DNA of 64,000 nucleotides from an uncultured SAR116 cluster alpha proteobacterium (GTDB lineage Bacteria; Pseudomonadota; Alphaproteobacteria; Puniceispirillales; GCA-002684695), in contig CACAIE010000004.1 of NCBI GenBank assembly GCA_902532475.1, positions 1 to 64,000 of the forward strand. Direction: 5' to 3'. The notes beneath the pieces are model-generated. The model was not told the origin of the DNA. It saw nothing but the letters and a program-made list of their open reading frames with translations, and ran no database searches. A program made the position numbers and the translations under genes. Positions 30,814-36,994 of the stretch are shown one piece after another (within the stretch, counting starts at the first letter, position 1; the number at the start of each line of letters is the position of its first letter).

Positions 30814-32181
30814 CTAGTGTCTATTACTTTCTATATCTAAAGTTTTTATTTTTCTATGCAATGCAGACCTTTCCATCTTAACAAAAGAAGAAGTTCGAGA
30901 AATGTTGCCTCCAAACCTCTCAATTTGTGCCTGCAAATATTCTTTTTCAAATTTTTCTCTAGCTTCTTTTAAGTTAAATGATAAAAATTCACTCAAAGAA
31001 TCTAGTTTCTTTTCTTTAGAGATAAAATTAATTTCTGGGGGTAGCATGTTAGAAGTTATTATACCATCATTATTATTTGGTGTCATAATTAATAGCCAGT
31101 CAACTACATTTCTAAGTTCGTTTAAATTTCCAGGCCAATCATAAAGTTGCAACGAAGCAATAGCATCATCGCTTAAAATTCTTTCAGGTTTGTTTAAGAT
31201 TGCTGAAGCAGAGGACATATAATACTTCACTAAATCTGGAATGTCCTGTGAATGATTTTTCAAATCTGGCATCTCTATAGGCACAACTCCTAGTCTATAA
31301 TATAAATCCTCCCTTAAGAGGCCCTGCTCAATTTGAAGTTTTATTTTTTTTGAAGATGATGAAATAACCCTTACATCAACACTAATTTCATAACTTCCAC
31401 CAATTCTTTTAAACCTTTGTTGCTGAACCGAATGAATGATCTTTCCTTGCATATCTAATGATAAATCACAAATTTCATCAAGATATAAAGTTCCTCTATT
31501 TGCTTTTTCAAACAGTCCAATTCTTTTTTTCCCATTGTTAGTTTTTTTCTCTTGGCCAAATAGTTCTTCTTCAGTTAGAATAGAGCAATTAGCGTGAATA
31601 AAGCTTGAATTTCTTCTTGGAGATTCCTGGTGAATAGTTCTAGCACATGCTTCCTTACCTGATCCAGATGATCCAGTAATTAATACTCTACTATTAGTTT
31701 GGGAAACCTTTCCTATGGTTTGTCTGATTGAATTTATTAAAGATGATTTTCCAACTATCATATCAGTTCTTCTTATCCGCCTCTTTAATTGTTCATTTTC
31801 TTTTTTTAGACCTGAAGTTTCTAATGCTCTTTTAATCATAAAAGTTAATTTTTCAGATTTAAAGGGCTTCTCTATAAAATCATAAGCACCTGCTTTAATA
31901 GAATTCACAGCAATTTCAACTGTTCCGTGACCAGAAATCATTACTACTGGAATTTCTGGATAACTATCTTTGACCCAATTCAATAAAGAGAGCCCATCCA
32001 TTGTACTATCTCTCATCCAAATATCTAAAATTGCCAATGATGGTAACTCCATATTCATTTTTGCTTGAGCTTCTTGTGCGTTTGACACACAAATAGTTTC
32101 ATAACCTTCATCACTCAGAACTGCTGATATCATGTCTCGTATATCAGGTTCATCATCAACTATGAGTATGTTTTCTTTCAT
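30814..32181 (-). CDS. ntrX: Response regulator NtrX
   Basis: Receiver domain (LAILDIWMRDSTMDGL), AAA+ Walker A GSSGSGKEACA, Walker B LYLDEICDL, Fis-type HTH. Confidence 0.93.
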   Translation of the reverse strand: MKENILIVDDEPDIRDMISAVLSDEGYETICVSNAQEAQAKMNMELPSLAILDIWMRDSTMDGLSLLNWVKDSYPEIPVVMISGHGTVEIAVNSIKAGAYDFIEKPFKSEKLTFMIKRALETSGLKKENEQLKRRIRRTDMIVGKSSLINSIRQTIGKVSQTNSRVLITGSSGSGKEACARTIHQESPRRNSSFIHANCSILTEEELFGQEKKTNNGKKRIGLFEKANRGTLYLDEICDLSLDMQGKIIHSVQQQRFKRIGGSYEISVDVRVISSSSKKIKLQIEQGLLREDLYYRLGVVPIEMPDLKNHSQDIPDLVKYYMSSASAILNKPERILSDDAIASLQLYDWPGNLNELRNVVDWLLIMTPNNNDGIITSNMLPPEINFISKEKKLDSLSEFLSFNLKEAREKFEKEYLQAQIERFGGNISRTSSFVKMERSALHRKIKTLDIESNRH

Positions 32182-32213: not shown

Positions 32214-34376
32214 TTATATCAAAAATTCTATCATGATTTCTGCACCACCCAGCTTTGAATCTCTCAATATTAATTTTCCATTATGCTCTTCTACAATTCT
32301 TTTTACAATTGACAACCCTAAACCAGTTCCTTTTTTCCTCAAGGTAATGTATGGATTTGTAAGGTTTTCTCTGTCTTCAGGAAATCCAGAACCATTGTCT
32401 TCTATAATCAATAAAACTTTTTCATTTTTTAACTTTGTATAAATATTTATAATTCCTTTAGAAATTCTAGGGTTTTCATTAATAGAATCAACTGAATTTT
32501 GAAAAATATTTGTTAAGCCTTGCCTTATCTGTTGAGAGTCAATTAACATTTTAAACTCATTCGGCAATTCATTCCTATAACTCCATTTAATATTGCCATT
32601 ACTGATTTTAAATAAAGACAATTGAGTTGAAATAACTTTATCTAAATCCCCAAGATAAAGGCTTACAGAAGGCATCCTTGCAAAAGAACTAAACTCTCCA
32701 ACTAATTTTCCTATGTCGTCAACCTGCCTCTGAATAGTTTCAAGATAGTTATTAAATAATTTTAATGCATTAGGATCTTTTGGTTTAAATTTTTTATAAA
32801 TTTTTTCAACTGATAATTGAAGTGGTGTCAATGGGTTTCTTATTTCATGAGCAATTCTTTGGGCTATATCAGACCAAGCAGCTTTCTTTTGAGCTGATAA
32901 TAGTTCTGTAATATCATCAAAGGTTATTACATAACCAGAAATATTTCCTTCGCTAATCTGCACTGAAACTCTAGATAAAAAAGTACAATTTTCATTATTA
33001 ATCTTTAAATTAATTTGCTCTTCATTATTTATGATTTTACCTTTTTGCACCCCAGAAAATAAATTTTTAAACTCAGGATAAAGTTTGATGAACTTTTTTC
33101 CATAAAAATTTTTAACAGAGATTTTAAGTAATTCTAATGATTTAGAGTTTGGCAAATTAACTTTACCGTTGGCATCTAACCCAATAACACCAGATGAAAC
33201 TCCTGATAAAATCGCTTCAGTAAACTCTCTTCTTTGATTAATTTGATAGTTAGCTGCAATTAATTCTTTTCTATTTCTAGAAATTTCATCTAACATCTTA
33301 TTAAAACTAAGACCTAATCTGGATATTTCCTCTATACCCAAATTATTGTCAACCCTTACTTCTAAATTGCCAGATCTAGCAATATTTGCAACCCTGATTA
33401 CAGAACTTAAAGGTTCAATGATTGAATTAGCTATAATTAACCCTATCCATAAAGCTAGTAGCAATAAAAATAATGCCACAAGAAAAAAGAGAACACCAAG
33501 TGAGATTTGTATATTTGTACTCTCAATATTTAACAATTGATACTGATCTGAAGCTAATTTAGTTCTACCAATCGCATCTAAAACTGAGGGTTCTAAAAAC
33601 CTTCCGGCATAAAGATAAACGTCAACAAGTCTATTTATCTTAACTAGCCCCCTAATTTTGTTATGAGAATCTGACCTTAAAATAACTAAATCACCGTTTT
33701 TTGCCTTATTAAAGGCCTGGTTATCTAAATCATTTAATGCAATTGAAAAAGCAAACTGTGAACGAGCTAAAATCATTTTAGAACTATTAAGTAAAATAGC
33801 TTCTGAAAGATTTCTTACTGCTGCTTGTGTAGATAAATAATTATCCAAATTCTTTGGTTTTGAAACTAATTTTGGAGCTTCTCGATTTATATCATTAACC
33901 ATCTCAAGGATAGATCCTTTAACACTTCTGGTATGTTCGTCAAGATAGTCTTCCGCAACTTTTACAGATTCGTTCACTGCTGTTGATATTCGATCTGAAA
34001 ACCAACCTCTAAAACTATAATCAATAATAAAAAATCCAAAAGCAGCCAAAAATATTGACGGTAAAGTTGATATAACACCAAACAAAAATGCTATCCGCCA
34101 ATGCAATTGAGATCCAGCATGTTTTTTGTTATGATCTAAAATAATCTTGTTAATTTGATAAGCAACCAATACAGAAAGAATTATTAAACAAAATGCAAAC
34201 AAGCCGACAATAAATAAAAAAAAGAGCTCTATATCAGAATTAAAAAATAACTGTATAGGTAAAAGGTATAAAGATAGTGTAAAAATAATTAATACTATAG
34301 AAGATATAATTAAAAATATTCTAAATTGAGAGATCATAAAATATAAAAATTCAAAAAGTTTAGTATTAAATTTCAA
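32214..34376 (-). CDS. ntrY: Sensor histidine kinase NtrY
   Basis: N-terminal TM segments, HAMP, PAS, HEIRNPLTPLQLSVEKIYKK, GTGLGLSIVKRI. Confidence 0.95.
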   Translation of the reverse strand: MKFNTKLFEFLYFMISQFRIFLIISSIVLIIFTLSLYLLPIQLFFNSDIELFFLFIVGLFAFCLIILSVLVAYQINKIILDHNKKHAGSQLHWRIAFLFGVISTLPSIFLAAFGFFIIDYSFRGWFSDRISTAVNESVKVAEDYLDEHTRSVKGSILEMVNDINREAPKLVSKPKNLDNYLSTQAAVRNLSEAILLNSSKMILARSQFAFSIALNDLDNQAFNKAKNGDLVILRSDSHNKIRGLVKINRLVDVYLYAGRFLEPSVLDAIGRTKLASDQYQLLNIESTNIQISLGVLFFLVALFLLLLALWIGLIIANSIIEPLSSVIRVANIARSGNLEVRVDNNLGIEEISRLGLSFNKMLDEISRNRKELIAANYQINQRREFTEAILSGVSSGVIGLDANGKVNLPNSKSLELLKISVKNFYGKKFIKLYPEFKNLFSGVQKGKIINNEEQINLKINNENCTFLSRVSVQISEGNISGYVITFDDITELLSAQKKAAWSDIAQRIAHEIRNPLTPLQLSVEKIYKKFKPKDPNALKLFNNYLETIQRQVDDIGKLVGEFSSFARMPSVSLYLGDLDKVISTQLSLFKISNGNIKWSYRNELPNEFKMLIDSQQIRQGLTNIFQNSVDSINENPRISKGIINIYTKLKNEKVLLIIEDNGSGFPEDRENLTNPYITLRKKGTGLGLSIVKRIVEEHNGKLILRDSKLGGAEIMIEFLI

Positions 34377-35797
34377 TTTTTAATCCTCTTTATAATTTCA
34401 ATATTAAGTTCAATAATTTTTTTTCTCAGTGTGTTTCTGTTGATCCCTAGTAATCTTGACGCCTTGATTTGATTGCCATTAACGGAGTTGAGTGTTCTCT
34501 TAATTAAAGATTTTTCATATTTTTTTATAAAATAATCATATAGTTTTTCTGAAAATTGTGATATATTTTCTTTGTTAAAAAATTTCTCAAATTCCAAATC
34601 TAATATCTCAGTAAATTCATTTAAATCATTTTTTATAGTTTCCCTTGATTTATTCAACTCATTTTTAATTGAAGAATCTCTTATAATTGTTTCAGGATAC
34701 AAGACTGAAATCCTCTTAATAAAATTTTCTAATTCCCTTATATTTCCTGGCCAGTTATAGTTCATTAATTCTTCAAAAGACTTTTCATCAAATTTTTTAA
34801 TAGGTAAATTGTTAAGACTATTTTTATTCAAAAAATTAATTGCTAATTCTTTAATATCTTCCTTTCTTTCTTTTAACGGTGGCATAAACAAAGGAACAAT
34901 ATTTAAATAATAAAATAAATCCTCTCTATACAAACCCTTTAAAATTAATTTTGATAAATTTTTTCTAGATGAAACAATTATTCTTATATCATTAACAACT
35001 TTGTTTTTATTGTTGGAGTAAAATAACCTTAACAAATCTAATAATTTCAGTTGGTTCTCAATACTCATTTCATCTATTGCATCTAAATATATTGTGGATT
35101 TTTCATCATTAACCGCTAAAATTAATTTTTCAATTTCACTGAAGTTTGAAATACCCATATTTATTTTAAAAAATTTATTATTTTTATTGCAGAGATTGTG
35201 AATGGTGTTTGCAACTAAATCTTTACCTGTTCCAGTTTCTCCTGTGATTAATACAGTTAAATTATTTCCAATGAGCTTTGAAATTAATTGGAAAATATTT
35301 TGCATAGATTTACTTTTCCCAATTAAAGAATTATTAGATTTCAAATTATCTAAATTTTCTTTTTTCAATAATTTTCCTTTTATTTGACTAGTTGACCTTA
35401 AAGCAGATCTTGAAACTTCTAAGACCTCATCGATATTAAATGGCTTTGAAATATATTCAAAGGCACCAAGCTTAACAGCATTTACAGCTGTAGATAGAGT
35501 AGATAACGCACTAATAACTATTATAGGCATTTTAGGGTTTTTACCCTTAATCTTAAAAAGATCGTCGAGAACGTTACCATCTGGCAATTTTACATCTGTA
35601 ATTAACAAATTAGGAGACAACTCTTTAATTAATCTCAACAACCCAGAATAGTTCCCAGAGGTTTCAACAATATAACCATGTTTTTTAAATAATGTTTTTA
35701 ATACAAACCTTACATTTTTATCGTCATCAACAACTAAAATAACTTCTTTAGCTTGATTAAAATTATATGATTTTGAGAAAGAGTAACTATTATTCAT
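34373..35797 (-). CDS. ntrC: NtrC-family response regulator with degenerate AAA+ domain
   Basis: Position between ntrB and ntrY; receiver (LLITDVKLPDGN), Walker A GETGTGKDLVA, Fis HTH NQIKASRLLGINRNTLRKK. Confidence 0.9.
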   Translation of the reverse strand: MNNSYSFSKSYNFNQAKEVILVVDDDKNVRFVLKTLFKKHGYIVETSGNYSGLLRLIKELSPNLLITDVKLPDGNVLDDLFKIKGKNPKMPIIVISALSTLSTAVNAVKLGAFEYISKPFNIDEVLEVSRSALRSTSQIKGKLLKKENLDNLKSNNSLIGKSKSMQNIFQLISKLIGNNLTVLITGETGTGKDLVANTIHNLCNKNNKFFKINMGISNFSEIEKLILAVNDEKSTIYLDAIDEMSIENQLKLLDLLRLFYSNNKNKVVNDIRIIVSSRKNLSKLILKGLYREDLFYYLNIVPLFMPPLKERKEDIKELAINFLNKNSLNNLPIKKFDEKSFEELMNYNWPGNIRELENFIKRISVLYPETIIRDSSIKNELNKSRETIKNDLNEFTEILDLEFEKFFNKENISQFSEKLYDYFIKKYEKSLIKRTLNSVNGNQIKASRLLGINRNTLRKKIIELNIEIIKRIKN

Positions 35798-36845
35798 TTT
35801 TCTTTATCATTTCTGGAAAACTTAGTCTAAACGTTGTGTTAGATTTTGACTGAATGTACTCAGCCTTTCCTCCATGAGAATTCATTGCCCCAATTACTTG
35901 GGTAAGGCCAAGTCCAGATCCATTATTTTTGCTTGTAATAAATGGATTAAATAAGGTTTCTTTAAGAAAATCTGATATGCCTTCTCCGTTGTCGGATATT
36001 TCAACATGTATAGGTGTAATTCGTTTTTCTTTGCCTAGGTATTTTTCTTTAGGCTCCCACAATGAAAAATAAGTTGAAAAAACTATTTTACCATCCTTTA
36101 CTATGGCTTCAGAAGAATTTTTAATTAAATTTAGAATTGTTTGAATTAGTATATTTTTGTCACCTGAAATTAAAGGCAGTGAAGGATCATATTTTTTTTC
36201 AAACATTATATTTTTTGCATAACTCGCTTGTGAAATTTTGATCGACTGATCTATTATTTCGTGAATATTTATTTTTTCAGACTCTATTAGTTCATTAGAA
36301 AACAAATATTCTATTTTATTGACAATATTATTTATTCTGTCTGTTTCTTGAATAATTATATCAGTTAATTCCTTTTTATCCTTATCAGCCTCTATTGACA
36401 GTAATTGTGCGGAGCCTTTTATTCCAGATAATGGGTTCTTAATTTCATGCGCTAACATTTTAGATAGCCCAAGAAAAGATACATTGTTATTAGAAAAAAA
36501 GTTTTGAGTTTCTAATCTCTTCATAAAAGATGTTTTATTAATTGTAACAATAAATTTTTCTACCCCTGCATCTTCAATGATTGAAATACTGGCATTTATA
36601 CTTGGATATGAGAAATAAGGACTTGATAAATTAAAATTTTCAATTGACATGGGTTTTTTTTCTTTTTTAGTTCTTAATATTGTGTCAATTAAAATTGAGT
36701 CAGGATGAAAAATATCTGCAAGGTTTTTAAATTGCAATTTGTCTTTATTTAACTTAAAAAATTCCTGAGCAGCGAGGTTGGAATATTCAATATTTAAATT
36801 AGTATCTATAAGAAGAATAACTAATGGAACATAATTTAAAATCAA
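35790..36845 (-). CDS. ntrB: Nitrogen regulation histidine kinase NtrB
   Basis: PAS-like N-terminus, HEIKNPLSGIKGSAQLL, GSGLGLTQVIGAMNSHGG. Confidence 0.93.
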   Translation of the reverse strand: MILNYVPLVILLIDTNLNIEYSNLAAQEFFKLNKDKLQFKNLADIFHPDSILIDTILRTKKEKKPMSIENFNLSSPYFSYPSINASISIIEDAGVEKFIVTINKTSFMKRLETQNFFSNNNVSFLGLSKMLAHEIKNPLSGIKGSAQLLSIEADKDKKELTDIIIQETDRINNIVNKIEYLFSNELIESEKINIHEIIDQSIKISQASYAKNIMFEKKYDPSLPLISGDKNILIQTILNLIKNSSEAIVKDGKIVFSTYFSLWEPKEKYLGKEKRITPIHVEISDNGEGISDFLKETLFNPFITSKNNGSGLGLTQVIGAMNSHGGKAEYIQSKSNTTFRLSFPEMIKKNE

Positions 36846-36994
36846 TTGAAAATCTTTTCCTGACAGATGATCATCACTAAAGTTTTTAATATTGTTTTTT
36901 ATAATTTAACTCTTTAAAAAATTTATATTATCATTTATTTAATTTAGTTTATTTTTACTAAATATTAAATATCTATCTTTCAAAGAAAAATGAC

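Follow-up and report, generated by a model that had tools for sequence, protein, structure and literature searches.

The window analysed here, a stretch of 64,000 nucleotides from an uncultured SAR116 alphaproteobacterium (1.94-Mb genome, 65% complete), carries an ntrC gene whose product combines intact receiver and DNA-binding domains with a heavily altered AAA+ domain. This raises the question of which sigma factor such a protein works with, and what use it still makes of ATP. We propose, with somewhat more confidence than doubt, that the window NtrC acts on glnBA as a sigma-70 regulator controlled by phosphorylation, and that it binds ATP without hydrolysing it. What is new here is that NtrC proteins have repeatedly lost the catalytic site in nature; a regulator working without ATP hydrolysis is not new.

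The altered AAA+ domain of an NtrC ortholog

The gene is second in the conserved alphaproteobacterial cluster ntrB-ntrC-ntrY-ntrX, which is adjoined by ispDF (Table 1). It is the NtrC ortholog of an NtrB-NtrC system, as indicated by its architecture (REC, Sigma54-activator AAA+ and Fis HTH) and by the ntr gene order, although its top NCBIfam match, TIGR01818 (ntrC), scores 361 bits, under the curated cut-off of 558.6.

Table 1. Positions in the window of the ntr genes and of the domains and motifs of NtrC
Feature	Positions	Strand	Remarks
ntrX	30814..32181	minus	paralog; internal control
ntrY	32214..34376	minus	sensor kinase
ntrC (P0001)	34373..35797	minus	474 aa, ATG start; REC, AAA+, lid, Fis HTH
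ntrB	35790..36845	minus	cognate sensor kinase; H-box HEIKNP, N and G boxes present
ntrB/ispDF divergent intergenic region	36846..36994		lacks the NtrC operator and the dus gene of f2 and f3 relatives
Receiver domain, residues 18-132	35402..35746	minus	Response_reg 3.5e-24
Phospho-acceptor D68	35594-35596	minus	codon
Walker A GETGTGKD, residues 186-193	35219..35242	minus	intact
L1/GAFTGA deletion site, IEKLILAVNDE, residues 222-232	35102..35134	minus	
Degenerate Walker B IYLDAIDE, residues 236-243	35069..35092	minus	Ala240 in place of the catalytic Glu
Arg-finger segment YREDLFYYL, residues 290-298	34904..34930	minus	second Arg is Tyr297
Fis-type helix-turn-helix, residues 420-467	34397..34540	minus	HTH_8 6.7e-11

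The match of the protein to the Pfam Sigma54_activat profile is split (profile positions 1-61 and 93-167), and the approximately 31 unmatched positions cover the L1 loop. In an intact ortholog of this order the segment has 28 residues, including GAFTGA, against the 11 of the window NtrC, so that about 17 residues are missing; the pre-sensor I loop, which follows Walker B, is also 3 residues shorter than in that ortholog. Within Walker B, D239 is kept while the glutamate is lost (E240 to A), and R291 is the sole Arg finger left. Accordingly, of the features of a sigma-54-dependent bEBP, Walker A is present, while GAFTGA/L1, the Walker B Asp-Glu pair and the pair of Arg fingers are not. Of the features of Rhodobacter capsulatus NtrC (RcNtrC), the absence of GAFTGA is found, together with a retained phospho-acceptor and Walker A. 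The receiver has its acidic pocket (D24-D26), D68, S96 and K118, and D25, D26, D68 and K118 are invariant in 16 aligned orthologs; the HTH recognition region (GNQIKAS.LLG.NRNTLRKK) is likewise conserved in the ortholog alignment. NtrX from the same locus is also a REC-AAA+-Fis regulator without GAFTGA, but its Walker B (LYLDEICD) and its two Arg fingers are retained, which is not so in the window NtrC.

These observations bear out what the earlier note had read from the single sequence: a deleted GAFTGA region, the loss of the Walker B glutamate and of one Arg finger, and an intact Walker A, receiver and Fis-type HTH. A search of the whole protein found no GAFTGA-like stretch elsewhere. The same defects were present in three further independently assembled genomes of the genus (four in all), which excludes a deletion introduced by assembly. 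An AlphaFold model built on a three-sequence alignment (the window NtrC, the window NtrX and one distant relative) was too poor for use (mean pLDDT 58.5, pTM 0.32). The ntrC copy of one congener (L059, G003:C75, 3686-5099) is split into two overlapping frames of 340 aa and 146 aa, through either a frameshift or an assembly error.

Recurrence of the losses and selection on NtrC

We then surveyed the same residues in related genomes of the order (Puniceispirillales, SAR116), in which f1 denotes the window's own family and f2, f3 and f4 other families. All eight f2 proteins carry GAFTGA and LDEIGD. In genera g6, g7, g9 and g15 of f3, GAFTGA was found in 0/10 proteins and the Walker B DE in 10/10; the loop reads GAFVGA or GSFVGA in four of the ten and is eroded in the others. 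The GAFVGA forms with an intact DE suggest that the sigma-54 loop goes first. Among f1 (n=4) and f4 (n=19), none of the 23 proteins has GAFTGA or a canonical DE, while 22 keep the Walker A GK; their Walker B reads LDA, VES, IES, LDN, IDQ, IKD, INE, IEE and others. The IDQ form, in g13, is a natural Glu-to-Gln change, as in PspF E108Q. Walker A reads GR in G058, where REC and HTH are intact. All f1 proteins (4/4) have lost the second Arg finger, while most f4 proteins have both. Genera g3, g10, g12 and g16 of f3 (f3-low) scored 0/11 for GAFTGA and 0/11 for DE, and their Walker A is eroding too (AEAGAEK, ADMGSGK), again with REC and HTH intact. In the NtrX tree, f1 and f4 join (0.955), and the other Walker B losers sit inside f3, beside DE keepers, indicating that Walker B was lost at least twice in the order. 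The defects first noted in one protein therefore extend to four genomes of the genus and, for Walker B, to two or more lineages. In a separate observation, the NtrX proteins of f4 g13 and g17 (L069, L070) have lost the Walker B Asp (IYFNEICD and IYFNEVCD).

Across the class, 70 NtrC proteins of other alphaproteobacterial families were readable (the sampling favoured low scores); nine of them lack L1, of which eight retain DE. The exception (L224; G176, family f80) shows an independent loss of both L1 and Walker B (LYLPDVAEA). Whereas L1 has been lost recurrently, the hydrolysis site has rarely been lost outside the order.

The segments of NtrC differ in how well they are kept. L1-Walker B ranks first in conservation in f2 (amino-acid identity 0.83) and last in f4 (0.39), f1 (0.43) and f3-low (0.42). 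Identity is high elsewhere, at 0.63-0.83 for REC and 0.72-0.78 for HTH, and the Walker A half (0.67-0.74 in f1 and f4) is among the better conserved segments of those two families; REC of f1 is given as protein identity without the frameshifted G003 copy, which spoils its nonsynonymous value. Approximate dN/dS in f4, calculated over non-independent pairs, was 0.10 for REC, 0.15 for the Walker A half, 0.44 for L1-Walker B and 0.14 for HTH. These values indicate that ntrC is under selection, with relaxation mainly in the catalytic core, where it appears to be confined to the L1-Walker B segment.

The glnB operator and sigma-54

Upstream of glnB lies the palindrome TGCCTA-N5-TAGGCA; in G004 of f1, glnA follows glnB. 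It beat dinucleotide shuffles (p <= 0.05) in 36 of 44 genomes, with 2/2 in f1, 9/9 in f2, 6/7 in f3-high, 10/10 in f3-low and 9/16 in f4, and the corresponding position of the remaining seven f4 genomes holds a sequence that resembles it (p 0.06-0.08). Given that the consensus was drawn from the first sequence set, the held-out genomes are the fair test, and 19 of 25 had the palindrome. In f1 and f4 it lies approximately 95-120 bp upstream of glnB. The same palindrome precedes dus-ntrB-ntrC in f2 and f3, with tandem copies in two of the three genomes inspected, which supports its assignment to NtrC; by position and conservation we regard it as a putative NtrC operator. Genome-wide it showed no clear enrichment over a reversed control, the signal being its position at glnB and dus-ntrBC, and no operator was found at glnK promoters. 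In the genus of the window, the glnB operator is kept in G003 and G004, while dus has left the operon and the ntrBC operator is gone; glnB of the window genome starts at a contig end, which removes its promoter and operator site from view.

A strong -24/-12 element lies beside the glnB operator in 4/9 f2 genomes versus 0/35 others, the latter including the glnB promoters of f1 (0/2) and f4 (0/16). A consensus scan for sigma-70 promoters at f1 glnB gave chance level (2 found, 1.1 expected). The operator thus persists where the sigma-54 element is absent, and together with the missing L1/GAFTGA this supports the earlier proposal that the window NtrC works without sigma-54 contact.

Sigma-54 itself has not disappeared. 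We found rpoN in three congeners (G001, G003 and G004; 88, 86 and 83% complete), and did not find it in the window genome or G002 (65 and 61% complete); its absence from the window genome is most likely due to incompleteness. Within one mismatch, the -24/-12 pattern occurs at 80 sites in the window genome versus 13 in a reversed control, with exact sites upstream of flgG and of a gene that probably encodes a lytic transglycosylase (these gene names were assigned by eye). In addition, fliS is adjoined by two activators that carry FTGA loops. Judged from these sequences, sigma-54 is still used in the organism, for flagella, and it is NtrC that has left sigma-54. On this point the reading in the earlier note has to be amended, in that the organism retains sigma-54. 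Loss of rpoN as the cause of the change in NtrC was rejected, because rpoN is kept in most genomes with an altered NtrC. Four f3 genomes that are 89-99% complete (G030, G051 and G061 of g10, G006 of g3) had no detectable rpoN, which are apparent sigma-54 losses within the order. In contrast to the window genus, the two other L1-deleted families tested yielded no rpoN (G120 of f24, G124 of f28).

In most f2 genomes the context mrdA-rodA-rpoN-sbmA-hldE (names by eye; L300, L302, L305, L310, L311) holds a further, divergent RpoN (type B) that shares 26-33% identity with the first; the first (RpoN-A) lies beside motAB in all four families. Type B is restricted to f2, as are GAFTGA and -24/-12 at glnB. 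In g5, the RpoN box of type B reads TARAVAKRR or TPRAIAKHR instead of ARRTVAKYR (G008 and G011 read), and in five genomes (L120, L123, L130, L287, L294) the glnB element (A/C)AGAACC...ATTGCT replaces TGGCAC...TTGC at the same place; the altered box and the altered -24 half possibly reflect sigma-promoter co-evolution. Further occurrences of AGAACC...ATTGCT in g5 genomes seemed to be due to chance and were set aside. The distribution fits a type B that was a nitrogen-dedicated sigma-54 whose absence elsewhere freed NtrC, which is a correlation only. We therefore put forward only tentatively, as a scenario that we think has less than an even chance, that RpoN-B served NtrC and RpoN-A the flagella, and that without B first the loop, then the hydrolysis site and locally ATP binding decayed. 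If true, the order would hold a natural series from an ATP motor to an ATP-clamped or ATP-free phospho-switch with the operator unchanged.

ATP and sigma-factor use by the window NtrC

In the mechanism we favour, NtrB would phosphorylate NtrC at D68, and phosphorylated NtrC would assemble on the conserved palindrome upstream of glnBA, where it would regulate, and most likely activate, a sigma-70 promoter. ATP at the intact Walker A would probably stabilise the assembled protein, with little or no hydrolysis. Because Walker A is kept in nearly all f1 and f4 orthologs, ATP binding is probably still used, and the best reading is of a protein that binds ATP and does not hydrolyse it, or is indifferent to it.

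The nearest precedents are themselves NtrC proteins. According to PMC10274813, citing Bowman and Kranz 1998, RcNtrC activates sigma-70 RNA polymerase and needs ATP binding rather than hydrolysis; it shares with the window NtrC the NtrB partner and the L1/GAFTGA deletion. In the L1-deleted family f24, probably Rhodobacteraceae, 3/3 proteins have a complete DE in Walker B and the full pair of Arg fingers, whereas the window NtrC has lost them. Caulobacter crescentus NtrC also lacks GAFTGA, through an 8-residue deletion that differs from the one described here; it acts at sigma-70 promoters and activates glnBA (PMC10274813), and it resembles the window NtrC further in that sigma-54 is kept for other genes. 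Its Walker A Lys and Walker B Asp are both required in vivo, for growth on ammonium (PMC10274813), and by analogy this may count against our reading. Loss of Walker B alone is no proof of inactivity, since PspF E108Q, which has less than 1% ATPase, binds ATP 30-fold more tightly and forms hexamers constitutively, still remodels RNAP-sigma54 (PMC4132715); GAFTGA is kept in that variant. TyrR, DhaR, HupR and VpsR are bEBP homologs without a working GAFTGA that act on sigma-70 promoters (PMC3162934), but they belong to other families and are not the glnBA nitrogen switch. Our literature search found no paper on SAR116 NtrC or on natural Walker B loss in NtrC. The earlier suggestion of a regulator without ATP hydrolysis is probable, given the repeated loss of the Walker B Glu and one Arg finger. 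The claim that this goes beyond the Rhodobacter precedent holds in that catalytic residues are actually lost; it does not hold for the principle, as RcNtrC is already described as depending on binding, and VpsR, in the same account, as needing no ATP.

The VpsR report is also the precedent for the main alternative, in which Walker A would persist only as a structural remnant and the window NtrC would be a DNA-binding regulator, dimeric or oligomeric, controlled simply by phosphorylation and free of ATP. The eroding Walker A of f3-low and the GR of G058, each beside an intact REC and HTH, point the same way, but the GK of 22/23 f1 and f4 proteins and the good conservation of their Walker A half make this unlikely for the window. 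We give still less weight to an NtrC that mainly represses, or antagonises other regulators. Caulobacter NtrC does both repress and activate (PMC10274813), but the operator in f1 and f4 occupies the usual place of an activator and retains the glnBA association of the intact NtrC. Sigma-54 activation through a non-canonical contact, with hydrolysis by other residues, is highly improbable: some sigma-54 flagellar genes are raised in Caulobacter NtrC HTH mutants that lack GAFTGA (PMC12421884), and sigma-54 is still present in the genus, but the strong -24/-12 is absent beside the operator in all 35 genomes with altered NtrC, and no compensating acidic residue was found, the D/E at position 243 occurring also in canonical proteins. 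A decaying pseudogene or an assembly artefact, which the split G003 copy might suggest, has hardly any probability left and is already contradicted by open frames in more than 30 altered orthologs, by the strong constraint on REC and HTH and by the identical deletion in independent assemblies.

Taken together, the NtrC of the window's family most likely works as a sigma-70 regulator and adds to the exceptions already known, among them those of Rhodobacter and Caulobacter. These two precedents are at present in conflict over what is needed of the AAA+ domain, which is ATP binding alone in Rhodobacter and both Walker motifs in Caulobacter. Within the SAR116 order, operator and target operon stay the same while the NtrC proteins form a natural gradation, from a complete sigma-54 ATPase activator through proteins without GAFTGA and without the catalytic Glu to some without a proper P-loop. 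It thereby becomes possible to test which of the AAA+ functions, from sigma contact and hydrolysis to ATP binding and assembly, are needed after the switch to sigma-70. There is also a warning here for annotation, as 'sigma-54-dependent' is probably an incorrect label for NtrC in many marine bacteria of the SAR116 order.
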